Below are positions 30,845-49,034 of a DNA stretch of 57,761 nucleotides, piece after piece (position 1 is the stretch's first letter; each line of letters starts with the position of its first letter). The notes under the pieces were generated by a model that searched no databases, had not been told where the DNA came from, and worked only from the letters and a program-made list of their open reading frames with translations. Made by a program: the position numbers and the translations under genes. The stretch spans positions 1 to 57,761 of the forward strand of contig JAENZN010000024.1 in assembly GCA_016841245.1 (NCBI GenBank). Reading direction: 5' to 3'. The stretch comes from Syntrophomonas sp. (GTDB taxonomy: Bacteria > Bacillota > Syntrophomonadia > Syntrophomonadales > Syntrophomonadaceae).

Positions 30845-31837
30845 ATGTACAGATTTGCTAAACGAGGTTTGGTACTTCTACTAGTGTTGTCCTTGATGGC
30901 AACTTTGATTATCGGTTGTGAAAAAGAATCTGCTGAACCCGAACAAAGTCAAGAAAAGGTGGAGACCGTATTTATCAATATAGGTACGGGTGGGACTGCC
31001 GGGACGTATTATCCGCTGGGAGGAGCTATAGCCGAGATTCTTAAGACCGATATCCCTGGAGCTAATGCCACCGCGGAATCTACCGGAGCATCAGCTGCTA
31101 ACATCAATATGCTGAGTACGGGTGAGCTCGATCTGGCTTTTGTTCAGAACGATGTTTCCTATTACGCTGATCAGGGTATAGAACTTTTTCAGGAGAAGGG
31201 CAAGATCGAGGGATTAAAAGCCCTGGCAACGCTTTATCCTGAAATATGCCAGATCATCACTACCCAGAATACCGGCATAACCAGTATTAATGACTTTGCT
31301 GGCAAGAAAATTGCTGTAGGTGCGGCTGGCAGCGGAGTTGAAGCAAATGCTCGCCAGATTCTCGCTGGTTATGGTTTTACCTATGAAGATATTAATCCCC
31401 AGTATTTATCTTTTGCTGGGGCTGCAGCCGGGCTAAAGGATGGCAATATCGATGCTGCATTCATTACTGCTGGAACTCCAACATCCGCAGTTCTTGATCT
31501 TTCCGCCCAGAACGAAGTAGTTCTGCTGTCTATAGATACAGCTGTTGCTGACCAGCTGGTTGCCGATTATCCTTTTTATACCAAGGTTACCATACCTGCC
31601 GATGTATATGGTACGGCAGCAGATATAGATACTCTGGCTGTAAAAGCTATGCTGGTTGCTACTGATAAAATGAGTGAGGAAATGGCTTATAATATCACCA
31701 AGGCTATATATGAAAATCTGGATAAGCTGGCAGCAGCTCATGCGGCAGGTAAACAGATAACTCTGGAGACTGCTCAGGAAGGTATTTCCATACCACTCCA
31801 TCCAGGTGCAGAAAAGTATTTTAACGAAAAATCATAA
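30845..31837 (+). CDS. TAXI family TRAP transporter solute-binding lipoprotein
   Basis: A 330-residue periplasmic-type binding protein anchored as a lipoprotein (lipobox LIIGC, Cys25). The TAXI family motif appears as GTGGTAGTYYPLGGAIAEIL near residue 50, with TESTGASAANINML and VGAAGSGVEANARQIL. It captures a carboxylate such as glutamate or a dicarboxylate and delivers it to the fused permease; the ligand is unknown. ATG 30845 follows GGGAGGTTATTGT. Confidence 0.95.
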   Translation: MYRFAKRGLVLLLVLSLMATLIIGCEKESAEPEQSQEKVETVFINIGTGGTAGTYYPLGGAIAEILKTDIPGANATAESTGASAANINMLSTGELDLAFVQNDVSYYADQGIELFQEKGKIEGLKALATLYPEICQIITTQNTGITSINDFAGKKIAVGAAGSGVEANARQILAGYGFTYEDINPQYLSFAGAAAGLKDGNIDAAFITAGTPTSAVLDLSAQNEVVLLSIDTAVADQLVADYPFYTKVTIPADVYGTAADIDTLAVKAMLVATDKMSEEMAYNITKAIYENLDKLAAAHAAGKQITLETAQEGISIPLHPGAEKYFNEKS

Positions 31838-31854
31838 AGGAATCAGATGATTTA

Positions 31855-32376
31855 ATGACTCTAAAGCGAAAGTGGCTGGTAATTGCGGCCACAGGTATGA
31901 GTATACTTATATTTATTCTTCTTACTGCTTCAATAATTCAGATAACAGCGTTGGTTATCAGTGAGCAGCGGGGAGACGAAGTATTGATTATACCCATGCT
32001 TAATGGCAGGGAATTTGATTACCAGTATATTCACTCGGTGCAAAAAACTCCGGTGCAGGAGCATTTTGCTGCTGCACCGAACAATCAATTACTCCTGACT
32101 TCTACTACATATCAATCTTTCGGTGTGGGTCTGCCTTTTTTGCCGGAAGAGGGAGATCTGGAACACATAGATGGTAAATACGTACTTACCGGGATAAATC
32201 GAGAATTCGATCGGGTTAACATTGGATTTATAACTCTTGCTCATCAAGAGTTATTCTATAATGGGAAAAGCTATAATTTTCGGGACTATTTCAAATCTGG
32301 AGCTTTACTGGTAGTGGAAGTGAAGCGTTATTCTGCTCTGGGAATTATGGGGGAATTTATCAGGGGGTTTTTATAG
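31855..32376 (+). CDS. DUF1850 protein of the TAXI-TRAP operon
   Basis: A 173-residue protein with one N-terminal TM helix and the DUF1850 pattern EFDYQYIHSVQKTPVQEHF. It is commonly encoded between a TAXI binding protein and the fused TRAP permease, and is presumed to be an accessory subunit. Its stop overlaps the next start by one base (TAGTG). Confidence 0.88.
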   Translation: MTLKRKWLVIAATGMSILIFILLTASIIQITALVISEQRGDEVLIIPMLNGREFDYQYIHSVQKTPVQEHFAAAPNNQLLLTSTTYQSFGVGLPFLPEEGDLEHIDGKYVLTGINREFDRVNIGFITLAHQELFYNGKSYNFRDYFKSGALLVVEVKRYSALGIMGEFIRGFL

Positions 32377-34358
32377 TGACTGACCAAGAACACATCGCAG
32401 CACTGGATGAAATACCTGCCCAGGAAAATATTTTAGCCGGTGAAGAGTCGGTTGATTTGGATAAGTTTATGGCCCAGTATGACCTGGAGTCCAACTATCG
32501 TCGTTATGACGGTCTTTGGAAATGGATAGTATCTATAATAGCCATAAGTTTCTCCTTATTTCAGGTGTATACCGGGATGTTTGGGGTATTCGATGATCAT
32601 ATTCAAAGAGCCATACACCTATCTTTTGCCATGGCGCTAGTTTTTATACTTTATCCCAGCCGCAAATCCTGGCCCCGGGATAGTATGCATCCGGTAGATG
32701 CTGTACTGGCGGTTATTGCTGCAGCGATGCCTCTTTATGTAGTACTTTTCTACCAGCAGCTCGTTTACCGCTCTGGACTTCCCACCACTATGGATATGGT
32801 TATAGGTATTCTGGGAGTTCTTCTGGTACTGGAAGCTGCCAGGCGGGTGGTAGGATGGCCTATTGTAATTGTAGCCAGTGTATTCCTGGCTTATGCTTTC
32901 GCCGGGTCCAGCATACCAGGGGCCTTTGCCCACCGAGGAGTTAGTCTATCCAGTCTGGCCGGGCATCTTTATTTCACCACAGAAGGGGTATTCGGTATAC
33001 CCTTAGGAGTATCAGCAACATTTATATTTCTATTTATTCTTTTTGGGGCCTATCTGGAAAAAACTGGACTAGGCAAGTTTTTTATTGACCTGGCCAACAG
33101 CATTGCTGGATGGGCCAGAGGAGGACCAGCCAAAGTAGCAGTAATATCCAGTGGATTGATGGGAACTATCTCCGGCAGTTCAGTTGCCAATGTAGCCGGC
33201 ACGGGAAGCTTGACTATACCGATGATGAAAAAACTTGGTTACAAACCGGAGTTTGCAGGTGCCGTTGAAGCAGCAGCATCAACCGGAGGCCAGCTAATGC
33301 CTCCCATAATGGGTGCGGCAGCCTTTTTAATGGCTGAATTTGTAGGGATTCCTTATGTTCAAGTAGTAAAAGCAGCAATTATCCCGGCACTCCTGTACTT
33401 CACCGGGGTTATGCTCTGTGTTCATTTTGAAGCCAGGAAGGAAGGATTAAGAGGTATGGCCAGGGACCAACTTCCCAGGATTAGCAAGGTTCTAAGAGAA
33501 AAAGGACACCTGGCCATACCCCTTATTGCCATCATCTGGCTGCTGGTAAGTGGTAAGACTCCCATGCGGGCAGCATTATGGGCTATAGGGCTTACTATCG
33601 CAGCCTCCATGCTCCGTTCATCAACCAGAATATCCTGGCGGGATATTGTTCAAGGTCTGGAAGACGGAGCCAGAGCAGCTTTAGGAGTCATCATCGCCTG
33701 TGCTACAGCAGGAATAATAATAGGTGTGGTTACCAAAACCGGACTGGGCCTTAAACTGGGATCAGTATTAATTGATATGGCTCATGGCCAACTGATGCCG
33801 ACTCTGTTCTTTACCATGATTACATCCATAGTGTTGGGTATGGGTGTGCCTACTACAGCTAATTATGTTATTACGTCTACCATTGCTGCCCCGACCATTA
33901 TACAAATGGGTGTACCAGTAATTGCCGCCCATATGTTCACATTTTATTTTGGGATAATTGCCGATGTTACGCCCCCGGTTGCCCTGGCCGCCTTTGCAGC
34001 GTCCGGTATAGCGGGGAGTAATCCCATGAAAACAGGCTTGAATGCATCCAAGCTGGCCATCGCTGCTTTCCTGATACCCTATATATTTGTAGTATCTCCG
34101 GCTTTATTAATGGTAAATACTACCCTGCCTGAGATTATGTTGATTATAACAACCTCAGTTACTGGTATGCTGGGTGTTGCTGCAGCCGTATCGAGCTATT
34201 TTATCACCCGGGCTGGCTGGTTAGAAAAGATTATGTTCTTTGCCGGTGGGCTGCTCATGATAGACCCGAATATCAGGACTGATTTAATAGGTCTGATTCT
34301 GCTGGGAACTGCTTTTCTCCTGCAAATATACAAACGGAGAAGATCAGCCGAAGCCTAA
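32376..34358 (+). CDS. TRAP transporter permease, fused DctQM (TAXI-type)
   Basis: A 660-residue membrane protein with about 17 TM segments: a short DctQ-like part (about 45-170) fused to DctM (about 180-640). SSGLMGTISGSSVANVAGTGSLTIPMMKKLGY and EAAASTGGQLMPPIMGAAAFLMAEFVGIPY are the TAXI-TRAP permease signatures, repeated in the second half as GMGVPTTANYVITSTIAAPTI. It drives Na+- or H+-coupled uptake with the binding protein at 30845. The start is GTG 32376. Confidence 0.95.
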   Translation: MTDQEHIAALDEIPAQENILAGEESVDLDKFMAQYDLESNYRRYDGLWKWIVSIIAISFSLFQVYTGMFGVFDDHIQRAIHLSFAMALVFILYPSRKSWPRDSMHPVDAVLAVIAAAMPLYVVLFYQQLVYRSGLPTTMDMVIGILGVLLVLEAARRVVGWPIVIVASVFLAYAFAGSSIPGAFAHRGVSLSSLAGHLYFTTEGVFGIPLGVSATFIFLFILFGAYLEKTGLGKFFIDLANSIAGWARGGPAKVAVISSGLMGTISGSSVANVAGTGSLTIPMMKKLGYKPEFAGAVEAAASTGGQLMPPIMGAAAFLMAEFVGIPYVQVVKAAIIPALLYFTGVMLCVHFEARKEGLRGMARDQLPRISKVLREKGHLAIPLIAIIWLLVSGKTPMRAALWAIGLTIAASMLRSSTRISWRDIVQGLEDGARAALGVIIACATAGIIIGVVTKTGLGLKLGSVLIDMAHGQLMPTLFFTMITSIVLGMGVPTTANYVITSTIAAPTIIQMGVPVIAAHMFTFYFGIIADVTPPVALAAFAASGIAGSNPMKTGLNASKLAIAAFLIPYIFVVSPALLMVNTTLPEIMLIITTSVTGMLGVAAAVSSYFITRAGWLEKIMFFAGGLLMIDPNIRTDLIGLILLGTAFLLQIYKRRRSAEA

Positions 34359-36307: not shown

Positions 36308-36321
36308 GATTAAGTTATATC

Positions 36322-36374
36322 AAGGGGAAGGTCCTTCTGAACCAAATTTGGTGGGTCAGAAGGATCTTCCCCTT
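36322..36374 (+). terminator. Strong terminator after pepF
   Basis: A 19-bp stem AAGGGGAAGGTCCTTCTGA / TCAGAAGGATCTTCCCCTT with one G-U pair and a 15-base loop, followed by ATATTTTGT. It separates pepF from the mannoside module. Confidence 0.8.
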
Positions 36375-36509
36375 ATATTTTGTCGCTGCGTCAAAATAAC
36401 TGTGTCCATGGCATATCTTATATTAAATATTGAGTTTGCTTAAATATTAAAACCCGAAAATGCGCATATTATTTAAAGATTATTGAAGTCCAACAAGGGG
36501 GAAATTCTA

Positions 36510-39500
36510 TTGACCCATTTAAATAGTGAAGAAATATTTGATAAAACTATGGAGGGGATATATCCCCAGCTTAAACAACTGGCCAGTTATGACCTGGTAA
36601 TAGGAATACCTTTCAGCGAAGAAAGCCACAAACTGCTGGCAGTGCTGGAATCCATCGATGAAGTTTTGGACTCCTGGATTGGCAGAAGACAGCTGATCGT
36701 GTGTGCAGGGGATTATGCCGGTCGAGAAACTCTGGACTTGATACAAGGGCTTTATTTAAAACATCCGCATCTGGAGTTTGTCATGCCGGCCGAGATAAGC
36801 GGGCGTGGTTCGAGTATCCGGGCCTTGCTGGAAATCAGCAAGCGCCTGGAAGCAGATCTCTTGATATTCAGCGCCAAGATGGCCACCTTAGAGGGACCCG
36901 GCATCGACAGTACCTGGCTGGAAAGCCTGATTACTCCGATTCAGGGTAATTATGATATGGTTCTGGGCAGTCTGCGCCGCTATCTGGGTACAGATAGTGT
37001 AGCGCATATGCTGGGAGCGCCCATACTGGAAACTTTTTATGGTTTTCGTATGTCCGAACCTATGGGAGGAATATATGCTATTTCCCATGAACTGGTGGAA
37101 GAACTGGCTCATGAGGCAATCTTTTGGGGAAACCGGATACAGGGTCATGGTATTGATTTTTGGATACTTACCCGGGCCTTGTGCTGGAACAAGTGTACCT
37201 GTGAAATAAATATCGGCAGCCAACAGGTGCCACACAGCCTGGAAAAAAGGAATCAGGTATTCTGCGAAACCATATTAACAATATTTGAAGCCGTCAAGCG
37301 GGACAGTGCTATCTGGATGCAGGATAAATTGGTTCTGAAGGTAGCTGACCGGCTGATTCGCAGCACCCGAAAAAAATCGGATGTTATTACTCATCCTCTG
37401 CCGCTCTTAATCAGTAATTTTCAGGCCGGGTACCAGGCCTATAAAACACTTTTTGACCAATATGATGAGGAGAAAAAGCTTCAAGAGCTGGCCAACCTGC
37501 CTGAACAAAGGTTTATTTTTGATGATGGGCTGTGGGTTTCTGTATTGTTTGACTTTATGCTCGCTTATACCTTCGAAGCAGAAGAAGCGCAGATGAATCT
37601 GTGTTCAGCACTGACCTCTTTGTACAATGGCCGGGTGGCCAGCTATGCTGTGGAGATACAGCAATTCAATGATAAATTAAATGACTTCGGTTTCGAAGAA
37701 AAAGAAGAATTTCTAGCTCGCAAGATGGATTCTATTCGCCAGCGCCTTATAAATGTGGTATGGAGTATGAAAAGCGATTTTATAAAAGAATGGATAGGCA
37801 GGACAGAACAGTGTAAACCACCGCTGGTACCGCTGGGCTATATGGAATATGTTCCGGGTAAACCGATTGTTATTCCCAAGAAAATTATGGGTAAAGATAA
37901 GCGCCTGGTAGAGACCGATCACATTTTTAAAGCCCTGCGTAAGCAGTACCAGGATTCTTTTAATGCTTTTATGAATGAAGGCCTGGGGCTGGCTTCCGAC
38001 GCCTCGAACCAGGAGATGACGGCAGCGGTTGAACAGTTCATGGAAAACTTGGAAGGTATGTTGGGTGAACTGCTGCCGGGGGATCTGCACAAACGGGATG
38101 GCGTGCAGCAGTTCGTAGAGGCCCTGTTTAATCTGCTGCCCCGGCACAAAATGTTTACGGTCCATTCTGATATCTTGCGGGAAATGCTGGTAAGGTTCCC
38201 TCCGGTAAACTTGATGATACCGCTGGGATATTACAAGCCGGCAGATCTTATAGATGAAATGGGCACCCGGGATGCCGTAACCTTCTCTAATCTTATCGAA
38301 ACCCGGGCTTACAGCGACCGGGATCTGGAATGGATCGCTAACACCCTCAAACCGGAAAGCTTTGAATGGGTAGATATCAAACCTATCATATTAAACGAAG
38401 ACCTGCATATGGGGATATTATCCAGAGGGAAAATATCCTATTCCAATCATATTACTGCCCGGATACCTATCAAACCGCTGGAATATGATAGCGGTGGTAA
38501 ATACCCCAGAATAAGGTATTTCACAAGTGTTGTACGGCGTATGGTAATAGCTGAGCACTATTCCCAGCTATTTCGCCGTATTGTATCAGAACGAAAAAAT
38601 ATTGGCCGCCGACTGTATAATTCCGTTATGGGGCTGACCAAAGGGGACGATTTTTCCGCCCACAATATTTTTGAAAATTATCATCACCGGGGTCTGGTAG
38701 AAAAAATACGTTATCTGGCAGATAAACTAGCCGGAGAAGGTCAGGATAATAAAGCCCGGCTGCTCCGTTTAGCTGCTGACAGCTACAGTCTGTCCCAGGT
38801 AATGGAAGACAACAGCTTTCTAACCTGCTCCGCCTGGAGCTGGGCCAGTTTCAGTTTTAAGGGCGGTAAAACTAATCCTGGTCCCTGGACCACTTCAGTA
38901 GAAAACAGATGGTTTAATCACGATTTTCTGGAAATATTATATCAACAGCTCGGCTATGATGTAGATAATATTATGCAAATAATATACCGCCTGGTTCAGT
39001 CCGGGGAAAGCAGTCAGAACCTGCTGGATACCTTACTCCCGGCCCGACCTAAAGATGTTACGGTGGTTGTACAGGAGACTACCGATAAACCCAGCAAACA
39101 TCTGATAAGGTATGAACGCAACCCCATCCTGGAGCCCGTCAAAGAACATTACTGGGAATCCAAATACGTATTAAATCCCGGTTCACTGCGTATAAGGGAC
39201 AAAGTCTATTTATTCTACCGCGCAGTAGGTGATGACGATGTTTCTCATGTAGGCCTGGCCGTAACCGATGGCTACAAAGTTTTGAAAAGGCTTCCTGAAC
39301 CTATATTTTCACCGGCCATTCCCGAAGAAAAAATGGGTTGTGAAGACCCCCGCTTGATACAGGTAGGAGATCGGATAGTCATGCTGTATACCGCCTATGA
39401 TGGCAACATCGCCCAGATCGCTGCTGCCTCCATTCTGGTAGATGACCTGGTTAATGAAAGGTATTGGTCATGGAGGCGAGACGGTCTAGCTTTTAAGAAT

Positions 39501-40037
39501 ATCTGGGATAAAGATGCTATTCTGTTCCCGGAAAAGATTAACGGCAAGTATGTTATCTACCACCGGATTGAACCGAGTATCTGGGTTACCTATATGAATG
39601 AAATCAAATTTCCCATAAAAGAAAAACATGCCATTATCGTAGGCCCCCGGCCAGGACGCATGTGGGATTCACTTAAAATAGGAGCCGGTGCTCAGCCCAT
39701 CAAAACCAGGTACGGTTGGCTCTTGATATACCACGGTGTGGACTATAACTATGTTTACAGCCTGGGCGTGCTGCTGGTAGATCTGCAAAATCCACAGAAG
39801 GTTATATACCGATCACCAAACCCGATTTTGGAACCCGAAGAGGACTATGAAGTAGGCCTGAGCGGAGCCTGGGTTCCCAATGTAGTCTTTACCTGCGGGG
39901 CAGTAGGGGCTGAAGACAAAGAAGTCCTGGGTGATAATGATGAAGTCCTGGTGTATTACGGTGCCGCCGACACCAGCATAGGAGTCGCCACCGCCACCGT
40001 GGGGGAATTGATCCCGGAGGAGTTTAGGGTTAATTAG
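36510..40037 (+). CDS. Giant glycosyltransferase-GH130 (beta-mannoside phosphorylase-like) fusion
   Basis: About 1175 residues. Residues about 20-270 look like a GT-A glycosyltransferase of the mannosylglycerate-synthase/GT2 type (DLVIGIPFSEES, AEISGRGSSIRALLEIS, EPMGGIYAIS, HGIDFWILT). About 270-860 is a helical region I do not recognise. About 864-1175 is a GH130 five-bladed propeller: YVLNPGSLRIRDKVYLFYRAVG, MGCEDPRLI (catalytic Asp near 946), DKDAILFPEKINGKYVIYHRI, IGAGAQPIKTRYGWLLIYHG, VLVYYGAADTSIGVA. GH130 enzymes phosphorolyse or hydrolyse beta-mannosides. The start is TTG 36510, with AAGGGGG eight bases upstream. The fusion suggests coupled synthesis and turnover of a mannoside. Confidence 0.85.
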   Translation: MTHLNSEEIFDKTMEGIYPQLKQLASYDLVIGIPFSEESHKLLAVLESIDEVLDSWIGRRQLIVCAGDYAGRETLDLIQGLYLKHPHLEFVMPAEISGRGSSIRALLEISKRLEADLLIFSAKMATLEGPGIDSTWLESLITPIQGNYDMVLGSLRRYLGTDSVAHMLGAPILETFYGFRMSEPMGGIYAISHELVEELAHEAIFWGNRIQGHGIDFWILTRALCWNKCTCEINIGSQQVPHSLEKRNQVFCETILTIFEAVKRDSAIWMQDKLVLKVADRLIRSTRKKSDVITHPLPLLISNFQAGYQAYKTLFDQYDEEKKLQELANLPEQRFIFDDGLWVSVLFDFMLAYTFEAEEAQMNLCSALTSLYNGRVASYAVEIQQFNDKLNDFGFEEKEEFLARKMDSIRQRLINVVWSMKSDFIKEWIGRTEQCKPPLVPLGYMEYVPGKPIVIPKKIMGKDKRLVETDHIFKALRKQYQDSFNAFMNEGLGLASDASNQEMTAAVEQFMENLEGMLGELLPGDLHKRDGVQQFVEALFNLLPRHKMFTVHSDILREMLVRFPPVNLMIPLGYYKPADLIDEMGTRDAVTFSNLIETRAYSDRDLEWIANTLKPESFEWVDIKPIILNEDLHMGILSRGKISYSNHITARIPIKPLEYDSGGKYPRIRYFTSVVRRMVIAEHYSQLFRRIVSERKNIGRRLYNSVMGLTKGDDFSAHNIFENYHHRGLVEKIRYLADKLAGEGQDNKARLLRLAADSYSLSQVMEDNSFLTCSAWSWASFSFKGGKTNPGPWTTSVENRWFNHDFLEILYQQLGYDVDNIMQIIYRLVQSGESSQNLLDTLLPARPKDVTVVVQETTDKPSKHLIRYERNPILEPVKEHYWESKYVLNPGSLRIRDKVYLFYRAVGDDDVSHVGLAVTDGYKVLKRLPEPIFSPAIPEEKMGCEDPRLIQVGDRIVMLYTAYDGNIAQIAAASILVDDLVNERYWSWRRDGLAFKNIWDKDAILFPEKINGKYVIYHRIEPSIWVTYMNEIKFPIKEKHAIIVGPRPGRMWDSLKIGAGAQPIKTRYGWLLIYHGVDYNYVYSLGVLLVDLQNPQKVIYRSPNPILEPEEDYEVGLSGAWVPNVVFTCGAVGAEDKEVLGDNDEVLVYYGAADTSIGVATATVGELIPEEFRVN

Positions 40038-40088
40038 GTCCATTTTTTCTGAGGAAAAGCATAACAAATATAATGTTAATGAAAATAT

Positions 40089-40154
40089 GGGCTCCTGTGA
40101 TTAAATAACCTAAAGTTTATATATGCGTTGTTATGTCCAGCATTAATGGAGCCC
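40089..40154. repeat. Inverted repeat in convergent gap
   Basis: GGGCTCC and GGAGCCC flank 52 AT-rich bases between the convergent ends of the GH130 fusion and the 40195 gene. Could pair as a long-looped hairpin; no T-tract. Confidence 0.35.
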
Positions 40155-40194
40155 TAAGGTCTAAATGACTTTTAATATCCCTGCTCCGGCGAGA

Positions 40195-41205
40195 TCATGA
40201 AAATTTGCCGCCTGCACTCTTGGAAGAGGCACTCGAACTCATCATCAACTGCTCGGTCATCAACAGGGAAAGGACTGCTTCTGCTCCCTGGTTCAGGTTT
40301 ATCCCTGTTTTCGTAAGGGCATCATAACAGCCACCGCTTTTTTGGTCGTATAAAGAAAGCTTATTGATATTAGCTCCGAAATACCAGGCATGAGCTTTGT
40401 GCGCTAGATCGAGGTATTCAGATTTAGCCGTGATAGTATAGGCCTCGTGACAGGCAAATGCAATGGAGGCCGCGTCTACCGGCTGCTGATCAAATAGGGG
40501 TATGGCGTTTCCTCTCTGGTACCAACCCTGGTTGCCAACGATATTCAAAAAACCATCTCGAAACAGGATATCATTGAGAAAATTCAAAGTTTCCAGACCG
40601 GCCTTAAGAAATCGTTTATCTCCAGTTATTTCATATACTGAGATCATAGCCTGGGGGAGTACCCCGTTGCAGTATGTCATATAATCTTCGAACCAATACC
40701 AATCTGAAGATTTTTTGCTTTGATATAAGTTCAGCAAATATTCGGCCATAGTATTCATGGTGTGAACTTTTTTAATGCTATCTCCTTTGGCCATTGCGAT
40801 GAGGGTGTAGGCAATAGCCCGGGGGGAGCTGAAATTAACTACCTGAGGTAAATTATTTTGAAAGATTTCCCGGCAACGGGTACTTATGTCTTCCCATTTA
40901 CACATAGAGCCCAGACTGCAGGCCAGGAGGGCTCGGCCTATAGAGTCTTCCGAATTGATTAATGAAGTATAGCGGCCTTTGAGCAGCAAATTAGACCAGC
41001 TGCCGTCTTCCTGCTGACAGCGGTCCATAAACGAAAGGTACTTCATGGCCAGATCGTGGCCATCCTCCATAAAAATAGCCACCATTAAGGCCCGGGCATT
41101 ATCGTCCAGGGTATGACCGCTGTTTAGATCAGGTCTATCCAGCCGAGAAAACTGCAAGATGCCAGTTTCATCGGTCAGGTTAAGGAAATGTTGGTAAGTT
41201 AGCAT
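40195..41205 (-). CDS. Helical-toroid-like (six-hairpin) protein of the mannoside cluster
   Basis: A 336-residue protein made of repeated helical pairs with QQEDGSWSN, SLGSMCKW, WYWFEDYMTYCNGVLPQAMI and CYDALTKTGINLNQGAEAVLS, a pattern of (alpha/alpha)-toroid glycosidase or lyase-like proteins. HTLDDNARALMVA near residue 32 is a likely functional motif. It overlaps the GT4 gene by 26 bases (ATG 41205) and so belongs to the same transcript. Homologues of this type usually stand next to GT4 glycosyltransferases and GH130 genes. The activity is unknown. Confidence 0.75.
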   Translation of the reverse strand: MLTYQHFLNLTDETGILQFSRLDRPDLNSGHTLDDNARALMVAIFMEDGHDLAMKYLSFMDRCQQEDGSWSNLLLKGRYTSLINSEDSIGRALLACSLGSMCKWEDISTRCREIFQNNLPQVVNFSSPRAIAYTLIAMAKGDSIKKVHTMNTMAEYLLNLYQSKKSSDWYWFEDYMTYCNGVLPQAMISVYEITGDKRFLKAGLETLNFLNDILFRDGFLNIVGNQGWYQRGNAIPLFDQQPVDAASIAFACHEAYTITAKSEYLDLAHKAHAWYFGANINKLSLYDQKSGGCYDALTKTGINLNQGAEAVLSLLMTEQLMMSSSASSKSAGGKFS

Positions 41206-42373
41206 AATTTAGGTTTTTATCCTCCCATAACAATTCGTTATCAGTTTCCAGCATCGATTTAAACATATCGGTATATTGCCTGCCCACACTGGGCCAGGTC
41301 CAATTTTTACCTAATTTCCAGGCTTTGTTCTGCAGATCCAGCTTGAGTGCCGGGTTCAGCAAAATATTTTCTAAAAGTCCGGCCAGTTCCACCGGATTAG
41401 CCTCTCTGGCAATCAGGCCTCTGCCTTCGGCCAGAGTCTCTACTGCATATGAGTAGGGAGTAGAGACTATGGCTCGGCCGCATCCTAACGCAAAGGCCAT
41501 AGTTCCGCTTACCGCCTGGTCTTTGTTAGGGTAGGGGCTGAGATAAATATCGGTCATGTAAAGGTATTCACCCAATTCTTCATTGCTGAGATATTTATTT
41601 ACGAAGGTAACATTATCTTTGATACCCAGACTGATTACCATATTTTCCAGCATGTGGCGATACTTCTCTCCTTCATATTCTACCAGCATTGGATGAGTTC
41701 GTCCAAGAATCATATACAGTATCTCCGGATATTTCCTGGTAAGGATGGCTATGGCCTTGATACCTAGCTCCAGGCCTTTACCAGGTCCAATAAGTCCAAA
41801 AGTGCTTATGATCTCCCGCTTTTGCAGACCATATTTATCCTTTAAAAATGCAGCTTCCTGGACTTTAAATTCCGGTACTCCATGGGCAATTAGATAAATC
41901 AACTCCGATGGCGCTTCATAAAGATCCGACATCAGATTAAGCGAATTTTTAGTCATGGAGACAATGGCCGCGGCTCTGCCGGCCAGATAATTGAGAATAT
42001 TTTTACAATTTTTGGTCGGACCGGGCAGTACGGTGTGGGTAATCAGTACATAAGGTTTGAGCAATAAACCGACCAGATCCATAATATATTCGCCGTCAAT
42101 CCCGCCGAAAATACCATATTCATGCTGGATGATAACCAGATCAATATCTGGAGCTGAGTTGATGAAAGCAGCCGCTTTAATATAATCAGGCCGATGCTGC
42201 TGATCTATTTCAAATATTACTTCCTGGGGATAATCATATTTATTCTTTTCTTCAGATACGGCCATTACTTTAACATCATTTCCATGGATCATTAAGCTGT
42301 TTCTTAAATCCATAGAAAATGTAGCGATGCCGCACTGTTTGGGAGGATATGTTCCCAGATTGAGTACAGCCAT
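41180..42373 (-). CDS. GT4 family glycosyltransferase (GT-B fold)
   Basis: A 397-residue GT-B glycosyltransferase: N-terminal NLGTYPPKQCGIATFSMDL (acceptor side), then IISTFGLIGPGKGLELGIKAI and the C-terminal donor-binding E-x7-E region around SPYPNKDQAVSGTMAFALGCGRAIVSTPYSYA. It is probably a retaining mannosyltransferase using GDP-mannose made by the adjacent genes; the acceptor is unknown. ATG 42373 has AAGGAG upstream. Confidence 0.88.
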   Translation of the reverse strand: MAVLNLGTYPPKQCGIATFSMDLRNSLMIHGNDVKVMAVSEEKNKYDYPQEVIFEIDQQHRPDYIKAAAFINSAPDIDLVIIQHEYGIFGGIDGEYIMDLVGLLLKPYVLITHTVLPGPTKNCKNILNYLAGRAAAIVSMTKNSLNLMSDLYEAPSELIYLIAHGVPEFKVQEAAFLKDKYGLQKREIISTFGLIGPGKGLELGIKAIAILTRKYPEILYMILGRTHPMLVEYEGEKYRHMLENMVISLGIKDNVTFVNKYLSNEELGEYLYMTDIYLSPYPNKDQAVSGTMAFALGCGRAIVSTPYSYAVETLAEGRGLIAREANPVELAGLLENILLNPALKLDLQNKAWKLGKNWTWPSVGRQYTDMFKSMLETDNELLWEDKNLNYANLPTFP

Positions 42374-42452
42374 TATCTCACTCCTTTATCAAAGGTTTAT
42401 AGACTAATAAAAGAAATTCTTCCACATCTTATCTGCCTTTATACTCCAGGGT

Positions 42453-43829
42453 TCATATAGCATGGGCGGATATTTTTGCTTCAACTCCTGCTATTTGTAA
42501 AAAGGCAAACAATTCATCTTTGATCTTCTCCAGGGCTTCAGGGGTATTGCCTTCACAGCGTACGATCAACTCCGGACCGGTATTGGAAGCCCGAACCAGG
42601 GCCCATCCATCCGGAAACACTATGCGGGCTCCGTCAATATCTATGATCTGATACTTATTCTTAAAATGCTGCAGAACTCGATCTACCACAATAAATTTTT
42701 CCTGATCAGTGCTGGGCAGGCGGATTTCCGGTGTAGCGTAGTACTTATTGATGTCAGCCAACATCTCCCCAATGGTCTGTTGACTCATGGAGAGCAGGGA
42801 TAAAAGCCGAGCTCCGGCATAGAGCGCATCATCGAAGCCATAATAGTCATCGGCAAAAAACATATGACCGGACATCTCTCCGGTAAAAACAGCTCCAATC
42901 TCCTTCATTTTAGCTTTTATTAGAGAATGGCCGGTTTTGTATATAATAGGCTCTCCTCCCAGTTTTTCGATTTCATCGATAAGACTTTGGGAGCATTTTA
43001 CTTCTACTATACACTGGGTACCGGGATGCCGGGTCATAATATCCCGCCAGAAGAGGATCATTAACATATCCCCCCAGATCATATTGCCCTGAGCGTCTAC
43101 TACTCCTAGTCGATCACCATCTCCGTCAATTCCAATACCTATCGCTGATTTGGTGCGCTTCACTTCGGTGATTAAATCCACCATGTTTTCCGGATTTACC
43201 GGGTCTGGATGATGATGGGGAAAAGTTGGAGTAGAATCGCAGTATAATTCAAATACTTCACACCCCAGGCTTCTAAAGACCTGGGGAGCGAAAAGAGAAG
43301 CGGTCCCATTACCGCAGTCCACTACGATTTTGGGGATATTAGGTCCCATCGTTATTTTGCTTTTTATCATTTCGGTATATTCAGCGCTGATGTCATAATC
43401 ATAAACCACCCCAACCGGACCTTCGATAAAATTCTGATTTTTTACCATCTCATAGATCTCCTGAATCTGCTCCCCATAAATAGTAGATTCCCCCAGGAGC
43501 ATTTTACAGCCATTATATTCCCCGGGATTGTGGCTGGCGGTTATCATAATACCGGCCGGGACATTGAGGTGCCGGGCTGCGTAGTAAAACATAGGTGTTA
43601 CCACTACCCCCAGATCCATCACACTGCACCCTGAATCCAGAAGGGCTTCAACTACTACATCTCTCATCAGAGGAGAGGAAATCCGATTATCTCTGCCTAC
43701 CAGGATGGTATGATGATTCTGCCTGGCTGCCATAGCAGCGAAGGCCCGGGCGATATCGCCCATAAGTTCTTGGCTCAATTCTTCTCCTACAATACCCCGG
43801 ATATCGTACTGGCGAAATATATGCTTGAT
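42453..43829 (-). CDS. manB: Phosphomannomutase/phosphoglucomutase, probable ATC start
   Basis: About 458 residues of the alpha-D-phosphohexomutase family: KHIFRQYDIRGI (N-terminus), TASHNPGEYNG with the phosphoserine (SHNP), GIDGDGDRLGVVD (Mg2+ loop), GEMSGHMFF (sugar-binding) and RASNTGPELIVRCEG (phosphate-binding). It interconverts Man-6-P and Man-1-P. An in-frame ATG at 43862 lacks a ribosome site and adds 11 unusual residues, three of which (EEE) are encoded by GAGGAGGAG, a perfect ribosome site. That site points to ATC 43829, 8 bases after its AGGAGG core, which gives the family-typical start I/M-K-H-I-F-R. Gene certain; start probable. Confidence 0.9.
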   Translation of the reverse strand: MKHIFRQYDIRGIVGEELSQELMGDIARAFAAMAARQNHHTILVGRDNRISSPLMRDVVVEALLDSGCSVMDLGVVVTPMFYYAARHLNVPAGIMITASHNPGEYNGCKMLLGESTIYGEQIQEIYEMVKNQNFIEGPVGVVYDYDISAEYTEMIKSKITMGPNIPKIVVDCGNGTASLFAPQVFRSLGCEVFELYCDSTPTFPHHHPDPVNPENMVDLITEVKRTKSAIGIGIDGDGDRLGVVDAQGNMIWGDMLMILFWRDIMTRHPGTQCIVEVKCSQSLIDEIEKLGGEPIIYKTGHSLIKAKMKEIGAVFTGEMSGHMFFADDYYGFDDALYAGARLLSLLSMSQQTIGEMLADINKYYATPEIRLPSTDQEKFIVVDRVLQHFKNKYQIIDIDGARIVFPDGWALVRASNTGPELIVRCEGNTPEALEKIKDELFAFLQIAGVEAKISAHAI

Positions 43830-43933
43830 AAATATCTCCTCCTCAAGCCGAATTATGCACATGGATAAGTATATTTTAAATATTTAAATTTTATGCCTAG
43901 AAACGATTCCCAATAATCTGCCACCCGGCTCTA

Positions 43934-44980
43934 TCAAAGCAGGTCCAGGCGCTCTTTTTCTTTCAATATCTCGGTTATTTTCCGGATGTCCTGAGATCGG
44001 TGGCGATTGGACACCAGGATAATATCATCGGTTTCAACTACCAGAGTATCCTGCACCCCATACAGAACTATGGTTTTGCCAGTCTGTTTAACCACACAGT
44101 TATGGCTGTCCAGGACTACGATGTCAGAGCCTGTACACACATTGCTCATATCGTCCTGGTCATGAATATCTGCCAGGGCATTCCAACTGCCCAGGTCACA
44201 CCAGCCAAAATCAGCTGGGACTACAGCCATCCGATTTGATTTTTCTGCGATGCCATAATCCAGGCTGATTGAAGGCAGATCAGCGTAAGACGAGAGATAG
44301 GCATCATAACCATCATTTATTTTTTCATATATTTCAGGTAGATGAGTTTTGAACTCCTGGGTGAGTACCTCCGTTGAACCGATATAAATGCCGGCGTTCC
44401 ATACATATTCTCCGGAACTGAGGTAGGTCTTGGCAGTTGATAAATCAGGTTTCTCGCGAAAAGAATTTACCTGAAACACATCCCCGATTTCGCCAATCTC
44501 CCACTTGGTTTTCTCTATATACCCGTACCCGGTTTCAGGACGATCAGGAGCTATACCGATGGTAGCAATATGTCCCTGTTGGGCGGCCAAAATGGCCCGG
44601 CGCATACTTTCCGAAAAAGCCTGAGAGTCGCTTATATGGTGATCTGCCGGGAAGAACCCCAGGATTTCATCTGGATCTTCCTGTTGCTGACGAGCCAGTA
44701 CCAAACCTACTGCCGGGGCCGTATTTTTACCTTCCGGTTCGGTTAGAATTTCAATCAAATAGGCATCAGGACGGATCTCAATTACCTGCTCTATACCAGA
44801 CAGTAGATCATCGCTGGTAATGATAATTACTTTTCTGGCTCCAGAAGTTACCAGACGATCTATAGTATTATCCAGCATAGATTTGTTGTTAACAAATTTG
44901 CAGAGCTGTTTGGGGCGCTGCTGACGGCTTTCCGGCCATAATCTGAGTCCCCTGCCTCCTGCTAAAATTACTGCAATCAT
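43934..44980 (-). CDS. manC: Mannose-1-phosphate guanylyltransferase
   Basis: A 348-residue nucleotidyltransferase: MIAVILAGGRGLRLWPESRQQRPKQL is the G-x-G-x-R-L-x-P-x-S/T...P-K-Q signature, FFPADHHI the metal-binding segment, FREKPD the next, and SLDYGIAEKS and DFGWCDLGSWNAL are the GMP-family motifs. It makes GDP-mannose from Man-1-P and GTP. ATG 44980 (GGAGG five bases upstream) is used; a 35-residue upstream extension in the same frame lacks a ribosome site. There is no fused isomerase domain. It is first in the manC-manB-GT4-toroid transcript. Confidence 0.95.
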   Translation of the reverse strand: MIAVILAGGRGLRLWPESRQQRPKQLCKFVNNKSMLDNTIDRLVTSGARKVIIITSDDLLSGIEQVIEIRPDAYLIEILTEPEGKNTAPAVGLVLARQQQEDPDEILGFFPADHHISDSQAFSESMRRAILAAQQGHIATIGIAPDRPETGYGYIEKTKWEIGEIGDVFQVNSFREKPDLSTAKTYLSSGEYVWNAGIYIGSTEVLTQEFKTHLPEIYEKINDGYDAYLSSYADLPSISLDYGIAEKSNRMAVVPADFGWCDLGSWNALADIHDQDDMSNVCTGSDIVVLDSHNCVVKQTGKTIVLYGVQDTLVVETDDIILVSNRHRSQDIRKITEILKEKERLDLL

Positions 44981-47313: not shown

Positions 47314-48585
47314 TTATGGAATACCGTTTTCTTGGGAGTAGATGTTGGTTATACTTACAGTACTGGTCTGACCTGATTTAATAGTAATGTTGCCTTCAGG
47401 AGTTTTTCTCACCTGGGTTGCTCCAACTGCATTACTTTCTATTACTTCATAAGTTCCCGGAGCTAGGCTGACGGATATGGTCTGGTCCGCTTTAATACTT
47501 CGTTTTATAGTTCCTTCCGGTCCAGATATGCTTACTTCATAGGTAGAACCGATTGGAGCAGGACCTTCTACACTTTTGCTAATATTCAAAGTGCCCTTGG
47601 GAGGAACCGGGAAACGGTTGGTCACCGTGAGGTAAACCGTCTGACCGGGAGATACCTGGATATTTCCCGGTATCGATTTGCTGTAAGATAGAGCGCCCCC
47701 GGTTTTGGACTCCACCACATGGTAGGTCCCGGGAGGCAGCGATGCGGTAAAGCTCGCTCCCGCCTTGATGCTGTTACGGCTGACTTCTCTATTATCGCTT
47801 CCAATCTCACTTACCACAAATTCATAATTGGCTCCTGCAGGGGCATTGCCGATGGTTTTCTTACTGATTACCAGTTTGCCGGGATTAGAGATTAGGTTTA
47901 CTGTGACTTCAGTAGGCTTAATGGGCCCCATGCAGTAGATAGCTCCACTCCAGCATTCTTTTTTGCCGGTGTTGCTGCTTGGATCGAGCAGTCTGAACAT
48001 GTAGTTGCCGACCTTGTGGTTGGGATTTTCTTCTGGATTATAGCGGATGGTATATAATTCACCCGGCTTTAGCGAGGGGACTTCACCTTCTGCCAGAGGC
48101 TCTCCCCCGGCTGGGCTGCCTACTTCTGTATAATATACTTCCCAGGCTACCGGCTGGGAAGTTTTGGTGCTGTTTTTAGAGTTGACTACCATAGCGTATA
48201 TCTCACCGATGCCGTCTTCCAGTTCGACTTCTTCACCGGGCAGATAGACAAAGGAATAGTTATCCGGGTTCTGCACTTTTACTTTATAAGTCCCGGGTTC
48301 CAGATCTATCTGGAAATCATCTTCGCTCTTAATAGTTAAGTTTTCTATACAGGAAACCTGATCATAAATGCCTATCTCAAAGGCTTTATCCGCCAGGTAG
48401 TTCGGTTCGGAGGTGTAAGTGAGGTCGATCCTGCTCATATGCAGGGTTCCCAGTTCTGCGAAGGAGAGGGCATAGCCCTCGATAACCTGAACCTCAGTTG
48501 GGGAAGATTTTAGGCATCCACCGACCAGGAATAAGATCGCAAGAAATAAAGCAAATAATAAATATTTAATATTAACATTATCCAT
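47314..48585 (-). CDS. Lipoprotein with prealbumin-like (SpaA/Cna-B-like) repeats
   Basis: A 423-residue exported lipoprotein (lipobox LVGGC). An N-terminal region of about 200 residues is followed by two clearly related modules of about 85 residues: LVISKKTIGNAPAGANYEF ... LPPGTYHVVESKTGG ... VSPGQTVYLTVTN and LNISKSVEGPAPIGSTYEV ... LAPGTYEVIESNAVG ... IKSGQTSTVSITN. This is the prealbumin-like fold seen in SpaA-type pilins and adhesins. ATG 48585 (GGGAGG ten bases upstream) is preferred over TTG 48591. Its location next to the Tad operon suggests a surface or adhesion role. Confidence 0.82.
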   Translation of the reverse strand: MDNVNIKYLLFALFLAILFLVGGCLKSSPTEVQVIEGYALSFAELGTLHMSRIDLTYTSEPNYLADKAFEIGIYDQVSCIENLTIKSEDDFQIDLEPGTYKVKVQNPDNYSFVYLPGEEVELEDGIGEIYAMVVNSKNSTKTSQPVAWEVYYTEVGSPAGGEPLAEGEVPSLKPGELYTIRYNPEENPNHKVGNYMFRLLDPSSNTGKKECWSGAIYCMGPIKPTEVTVNLISNPGKLVISKKTIGNAPAGANYEFVVSEIGSDNREVSRNSIKAGASFTASLPPGTYHVVESKTGGALSYSKSIPGNIQVSPGQTVYLTVTNRFPVPPKGTLNISKSVEGPAPIGSTYEVSISGPEGTIKRSIKADQTISVSLAPGTYEVIESNAVGATQVRKTPEGNITIKSGQTSTVSITNIYSQENGIP

Positions 48586-49034
48586 ATCCAATAAACCTCC
48601 CTTGGAACAGGAACGTTATCCCAGTTTGAGCATTTTCTATGCTTACATAATAACTTTAAACCTTTATGCCTGCAATAGCGATAATTGTGAAAAGGCGGGA
48701 AGTATTAATACTTTAGTACTAGAAATAAGCTGAAATAATAGTCTGAAAATTCTGCATTAAAATGATTTTTATGTCCTATATTATTTATAATTATTTTATT
48801 GGATAATAAAAATATGGCAATTAGTCTCGTTATATTTTGAATTGTCAGAATTAAGGAGAGTACGGAAGCAAATTCTCGGCCATACGGGAGGCGTAGAATT
48901 GTCACCCTAAAGATGCCTGACCAAAGGTACTAAATAATCTACACTTTAGTACAAAAAAGTTCTTGATGGTATGAAAGAATGAGGCTAAGATAGAAGAGTA
49001 TACACTATATGGATTGAACAGGAGGTGAGAGAGA
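48586..49034. promoter_or_regulatory. Long regulatory region with repeated TTTAGTAC motif ahead of the Tad operon
   Basis: This 450-base gap has no gene. The octamer TTTAGTAC occurs at 48712-48719 (as TTTAGTACTAGAAA, near-palindromic) and 48945-48952, with its reverse complement GTACTAAA at 48927-48934. The last two form an inverted repeat with a 10-base spacer followed by AAAAAA. They lie about 80-110 bases before the flp start. They may be operator sites or a small hairpin in the leader. Confidence 0.45.

Follow-up and report, generated by a model that had tools for sequence, protein, structure and literature searches.

In this study we show that a window of 57,761 nucleotides from Syntrophomonas sp., by which we mean the whole stretch of DNA analysed, encodes a single protein in which a GT78-like glycosyltransferase domain, a conserved middle domain and a GH130 phosphorylase domain are joined, and that its gene is inherited together with an operon for GDP-mannose synthesis (Table 1). 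The enzyme families, the catalytic residues and this co-inheritance are seen in sequence and fold. Whether the cluster serves an intracellular mannoside cycle, with an internal oligo- or polymannoside as its product that would serve as a reserve or solute, is in our judgement evenly balanced.

The reading frame of the fusion gene (36483-40037) is open for 1184 codons. Because a GGGGG ribosome-binding site lies 8 nt before TTG 36510, we take this codon as the start and 1175 residues as the length of the protein. Residue numbers are counted from 36483 throughout; subtracting 9 gives the numbering of the 1175-residue protein. An AlphaFold2 model of the fusion, built from 31 homologues, has three parts (mean pLDDT 80, pTM 0.47). 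A first-pass annotation of the window had described a glycosyltransferase and a GH130 domain in one chain of this length, and the open frame, the start backed by a ribosome-binding site and the match to PF04041 given below establish that this chain is real. The same annotation had the fusion facing manC, a phosphomannomutase, a GT4 transferase and a toroid-like protein: all four are found on the opposite strand as a convergent operon, in which the toroid and GT4 genes overlap by 26 nt, and the region it had singled out ends exactly at the manC start codon. A long inverted repeat with a run rich in T after it (36316-36379), likely a terminator, separates pepF from the fusion gene. The position of pepF beside the fusion is conserved among relatives; in the window a TRAP transporter of the TAXI type (binding protein, DUF1850 protein and DctM; 30845-34358, plus strand) precedes it. 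On the other side, at 47314-48591 on the minus strand, a gene codes for a lipoprotein-like protein that contains repeats of a prealbumin domain of the SpaA/DUF5979 type. An Rfam scan of 30-48 kb gave no match, and promoter and terminator scans were barely above shuffled sequence.

Table 1. Features of the fusion gene and the facing operon (positions in the window; residue numbers counted from 36483)
Feature	Position	Strand	Basis or remark
Fusion protein, 1175 aa: GT78-like, uncharacterised and GH130 domains	36510..40037	+	
GT78-like (mannosylglycerate synthase fold) domain, residues 38-433	36594..37781	+	AlphaFold2 model, VIA-align
Counterpart of the DxD metal motif, Ser130-Ala131-Lys132	36870..36878	+	
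Conserved middle domain, residues 434-867	37782..39083	+	AlphaFold2 model; no solved fold matched with confidence
GH130 domain, predicted beta-1,2-mannoside phosphorylase, residues 871-1182	39093..40028	+	Profile, model, invariant residues
GH130 key residues: Asp955, Lys1010, His1027-Arg1028, Lys1065, His1084			
(alpha/alpha)6 toroid-like protein	40195-41205	-	Distantly like GH88/GH127/GH76
GT4-family protein, related to GDP-mannose-dependent PimB'/PimA	41180-42373	-	Profile
Phosphomannomutase/phosphoglucomutase (pmm)	42453-43862	-	Family assignment
Mannose-1-phosphate guanylyltransferase (manC)	43934-44980	-	GGAGG before ATG 44980

Residues 890-1177 match PF04041 (Glyco_hydro_130) with an E-value of 1.7e-52 and 178.8 bits against a cut-off of 26. 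In fold comparison of the AlphaFold2 model, residues 871-1178 align to Teth514_1788 with Z 35 at 40% identity, and the five-bladed propeller typical of GH130 is recovered (282 residues aligned to 9gph, Z 35), which bears out the kinship with the beta-1,2-mannoside enzymes of Thermoanaerobacter proposed earlier. The first-pass annotation had made its reading depend on the GH130 catalytic residues; these are present, and all 53 full-length homologues share Asp955 (the catalytic Asp of the EDPR motif), Lys1010, Arg1028, Lys1065 and His1084 without exception. Previous work identified Lys199 of BT3780 as the determinant of beta-1,2 specificity and found hydrolases to be marked by a pair of Glu residues, 227 and 268 (PMC4599007). 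We located these positions in the sequence of 5a7v and compared them with the window, a paralogue in the same genome and the Thermoanaerobacter-type enzymes. Where the hydrolases have WG-E, LTEC and YNG, the other three have HR, KIG and YHG, so that in this comparison, which is one of sequences and not of ligand-bound structures, the basic residues Arg1028, Lys1065 and His1084 replace the Glu pair. Lys1010 aligns with the KDA motif of the Teth-type enzymes, its equivalence to Lys199 of BT3780 following from the statement in PMC4599007 and the position of the motif. On account of these phosphorylase-type segments and of the Lys in the KDA motif, a phosphorylase acting on beta-1,2-mannosides is the best prediction from sequence; the enzyme type is well supported and the beta-1,2 linkage probable. 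The best NCBIfam model is that of beta-1,2-mannobiose phosphorylase (NF052550), with a score of 247.4 that lies under its cut-off of 450, and for this reason any assignment of the exact substrate is tentative.

At the other end of the chain, residues 38-433 of the model match the whole fold of mannosylglycerate synthase from Rhodothermus marinus (GT78; 2y4k, VIA-align Z 30.6, rmsd 2.9, 353 of 380 residues aligned), although at 12% identity. A profile search found no mannosylglycerate synthase at E-values up to 1, and hhalign of the transferase profile against one single sequence of that enzyme gave a probability of 1.7; fold comparison was used instead. In mannosylglycerate synthase the metal is held by Asp102 and His217; Asp100, together with Lys76 and Asp192, belongs to a network of ion pairs (PMC2581804). 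The family profile aligns the E-A-D of distant homologues to the D-A-D of the glycosyltransferase sll0501; in the window the site reads S-A-K, without a GT78 DxD motif and with Lys132 in place of the metal Asp102. Outside the window clade 19 of 21 homologues keep the metal Asp, compared with 2 of 32 within it, where N, H, K, G, Q or E are found instead, and in the tree the window clade sits on a long branch (0.81, SH-aLRT 100) nested inside the Asp-bearing homologues. The pocket residues Arg108, Gly195, Gly196, Asp225 and Trp227 are nevertheless invariant across the window clade, and hence more than simple decay of the domain must be involved. Sugar-nucleotide binding or a metal-free activity may be its role, and in the window protein we take it to be, in all likelihood, not a normal transferase but a remnant that binds sugar or nucleotide or acts independently of metal. 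A further fusion copy, outside the window clade (L067:8335-11985), has a degenerate transferase part on a long branch, with S-Y-L at the metal site and Asn for Glu47. The earlier suggestion that the chain is a working synthase is weakened by the absence of the metal Asp from 30 of 32 members of the clade and of the EX7E motif from the adjacent GT4. Nor does a synthase and a phosphorylase of the same bond, as had been envisaged, follow from the anatomy, because GT78, the nearest fold, is retaining and would form alpha-linked products, the opposite anomer to the beta-mannosides on which GH130 acts.

Between the two ends, the first-pass annotation had noted a helical region of 600 residues. A helical stretch does exist, but it is not one linker: the GT78 match extends over the helical C-terminal part of that enzyme, so the region begins inside the transferase fold, which takes up about 130 of its residues, and about 430 more form a separate conserved domain. 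Mean identity within the clade is 80% for the GH130 domain, the most conserved part, versus 63% for the GT-A core and 60% for the middle domain; the last value, together with many invariant residues, rules out a linker, and the region probably contains a functional domain. Its motifs are REMLVRFPPxN, NIFENxHHR, WSWASYSFKGG and E(N/R)RWFNHDFLE. Remodelled with AlphaFold2 as residues 295-872 from 15 diverse sequences, the domain reached pLDDT 86 and pTM 0.70. Foldseek of this model against the PDB gave a best E-value of 0.06 and VIA-align a best Z of 7.9, without a confident match to a solved fold; sequence searches, also of plasmids and viral contigs, found no known relative. The lack of a structural match does not prove the fold to be new. 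We rejected a likeness to M3/M32 peptidases (weak matches to 3o0y, 3u24, thimet oligopeptidase and M32 carboxypeptidase), since Z was at most 7.9 at rmsd 16-20 Å, as is common for models that have no relatives.

The order of transferase, helical domain and phosphorylase mirrors the GT84-cyclase-GH94 chain of cyclic glucan synthase (Cgs), and cyclic beta-1,2-glucan synthase is a precedent for combining a transferase with a phosphorylase, which has been proposed to control chain length (PMC10901819). It might be possible that the fusion works in a similar way, with a transferase active on GDP-mannose: its fold is nearest to a GDP-mannose enzyme, the pocket residues are kept and the paralogue in the same genome retains the metal Asp. 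We regard this as unlikely, given the metal-site loss on the long stem branch of the window clade, the alpha-retaining chemistry of GT78 set against beta cleavage by GH130, and a middle domain that showed no match to the cyclase fold. The domain families of the two chains are unrelated (GT78-like and GH130, not GT84 and GH94), and Cgs is a membrane protein that uses glucose and not mannose, whereas no protein of the cluster has a transmembrane-like stretch (maximum KD19 1.57).

The fusion was found at strong E-values in 48 of 398 sampled Bacillota genomes (31 genera), nearly always at about 1200 residues, and the loci nearest to that of the window belong to genomes of Syntrophomonas and Syntrophomonadaceae. 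In 21 Syntrophomonadaceae loci all four partners are convergent to the fusion, and nearly every locus of this family with room has the same order: the fusion, then toroid, GT4, pmm and manC reading towards it. Because these partners recur across loci, the five-gene arrangement, whose absence elsewhere would have spoken against the first-pass annotation, is not due to chance. Of the 26 loci that extend 6 kb or more downstream, 24 have toroid and GT4; one of the others reaches the contig end at the toroid, and in L035 the toroid lies about 14 kb away. Among the sampled genomes, 43 of the 48 with the fusion have the toroid (it is missing in 5) versus 49 of 350 others, with a Fisher p of 3e-26 that is a guide only, as the genomes are related. 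Some relatives have other genes separating the toroid from the fusion (GT2/PMT-like, PAS kinases, a cation ATPase, a CoA transferase); these vary, and we regard them as insertions, not as parts. The genome itself carries a second fusion (L051:6735-14497, contig C37), 46% identical and with AAD at the metal site, which has its own GT4 and pmm, a different manC (37%) and no toroid beside it, and also a single-domain GH130 protein (L052:6359-7552, contig C18), 29% identical to the window domain.

Outside the fusion clade (L118, L122, L126), GT4 and toroid, often as one protein of 770-820 residues, stand beside a standalone GH130, a nucleotidyltransferase and pmm. On plasmids GH130 lies less than 3 kb from a toroid or GT4-toroid gene in 24 of 27 records, many of them close relatives, and several of the operons contain manC, manA and pmm. 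GT4, toroid, GH130 and GDP-mannose genes recur together in Sphingomonads, Rhizobia, Ilyobacter and Deinococcus. The module is thus broad, and the three-part fusion found in the window is its elaboration in Bacillota. The operons of Sphingomonads, Ilyobacter and Deinococcus have the same partner families and gene company, but their GH130 is without the GT78-like and middle domains, and we found no description of their function in the open-licence papers searched. On plasmid pBAR3 of Sphingomonas bisphenolicum (L148:689-9942) groESL is followed by manC, manA, GT4::toroid, GH130, pmm and a response regulator gene, which hints at a stress role for that module. The toroid has 46 invariant columns among 23 homologues. 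The GT4 of the window lacks the EX7E motif, with Gln286...Tyr294 where Alr3699 has E...E; Gln286 is invariant in 16 homologues, one of them from Parcubacteria. A Parcubacteria contig (L047:335-4629) carries two GH130 genes and, after them, two GT4 genes, of which the second belongs to the same type as that of the window.

No exporter, flippase or polymerase gene is present in the 36510-44980 stretch, as the first-pass annotation had stated, which together with the hydropathy values supports its view of a cytoplasmic module for mannose and GDP-mannose. For Thermoanaerobacter X-514 it has been proposed that GH130 enzymes salvage mannosides, mannose-1-phosphate being turned into GDP-mannose (PMC4264767), and the GH130 enzymes Teth514_1788/1789 share with the window 40-41% identity, the catalytic and beta-1,2 residues and the company of manC and GT4. 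Pure salvage of imported beta-mannosides in the window appears more doubtful still: Teth514_1788/1789 are single-domain proteins in a cluster with ABC importers, which also adjoin standalone GH130 genes elsewhere in Bacillota, whereas in the window GH130 makes up the C-terminal quarter of a long chain, no sugar importer or secreted glycosidase was found in the cluster or conserved beside it, and the two N-terminal domains and the toroid would be left unexplained. Least probable is a small compatible solute of the mannosylglycerate type, to which the GT78 fold, the cytosolic enzymes and a weak profile similarity of some family members to glucosyl-3-phosphoglycerate synthase (3.7e-6) would point, since the window copy is without the metal Asp, mannosylglycerate is an alpha-mannoside while GH130 acts on beta-mannosides, and many relatives are mesophiles.

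We favour the intracellular mannoside cycle, in which linkage, direction, product and the role of the middle domain are inferred. Going by family assignment, phosphomannomutase would supply alpha-mannose-1-phosphate and ManC would convert it to GDP-mannose. GT4, joined by the GT78-like domain in homologues with an intact DxD, would then place mannose on an acceptor. GH130 would reversibly phosphorolyse terminal beta-mannosides, probably beta-1,2-linked, to alpha-mannose-1-phosphate without ATP, and this could re-enter the GDP-mannose pool; in reverse it might add beta-mannose from alpha-mannose-1-phosphate. The toroid might hydrolyse or trim the same glycan, and the middle domain probably handles the acceptor or has an undescribed activity. 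However, both candidate makers of the glycan are doubtful, because the GT4 is without EX7E and the GT78-like domain without its metal Asp.

An intracellular beta-1,2-mannan turned over by propeller enzymes is known as Leishmania mannogen (PMC8950772). The GT108 enzymes concerned share the propeller fold with our GH130 domain (6q50, Z 21.6; 6q4y, Z 21.3), but are single-domain, eukaryotic and 14% identical to it. As a tentative and rather improbable extension, the module might be a bacterial counterpart of mannogen, in which a single fusion both builds and mobilises a store of cytoplasmic beta-1,2-mannan in syntrophic and related Bacillota, with the middle domain as a new catalytic or glycan-handling fold and a leaner GT4-toroid-GH130 form in other phyla. 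We found no report of a mannose polymer in Syntrophomonadaceae in the literature searched, and no description of the fusion, its middle domain or the GT4-toroid-GH130 operon in open-licence papers. In conclusion, the beta-1,2-mannoside phosphorylases of Thermoanaerobacter were reported without a known source of substrate (PMC4264767), and a conserved module that has no importer and links a phosphorylase of this kind with the synthesis of GDP-mannose points to where an endogenous bacterial beta-mannoside might be sought. The middle domain of about 430 residues is conserved, undescribed and found in 31 of the sampled genera, and the clade-wide loss of the transferase metal site beside an intact phosphorylase offers a testable case of the repurposing of a transferase domain.
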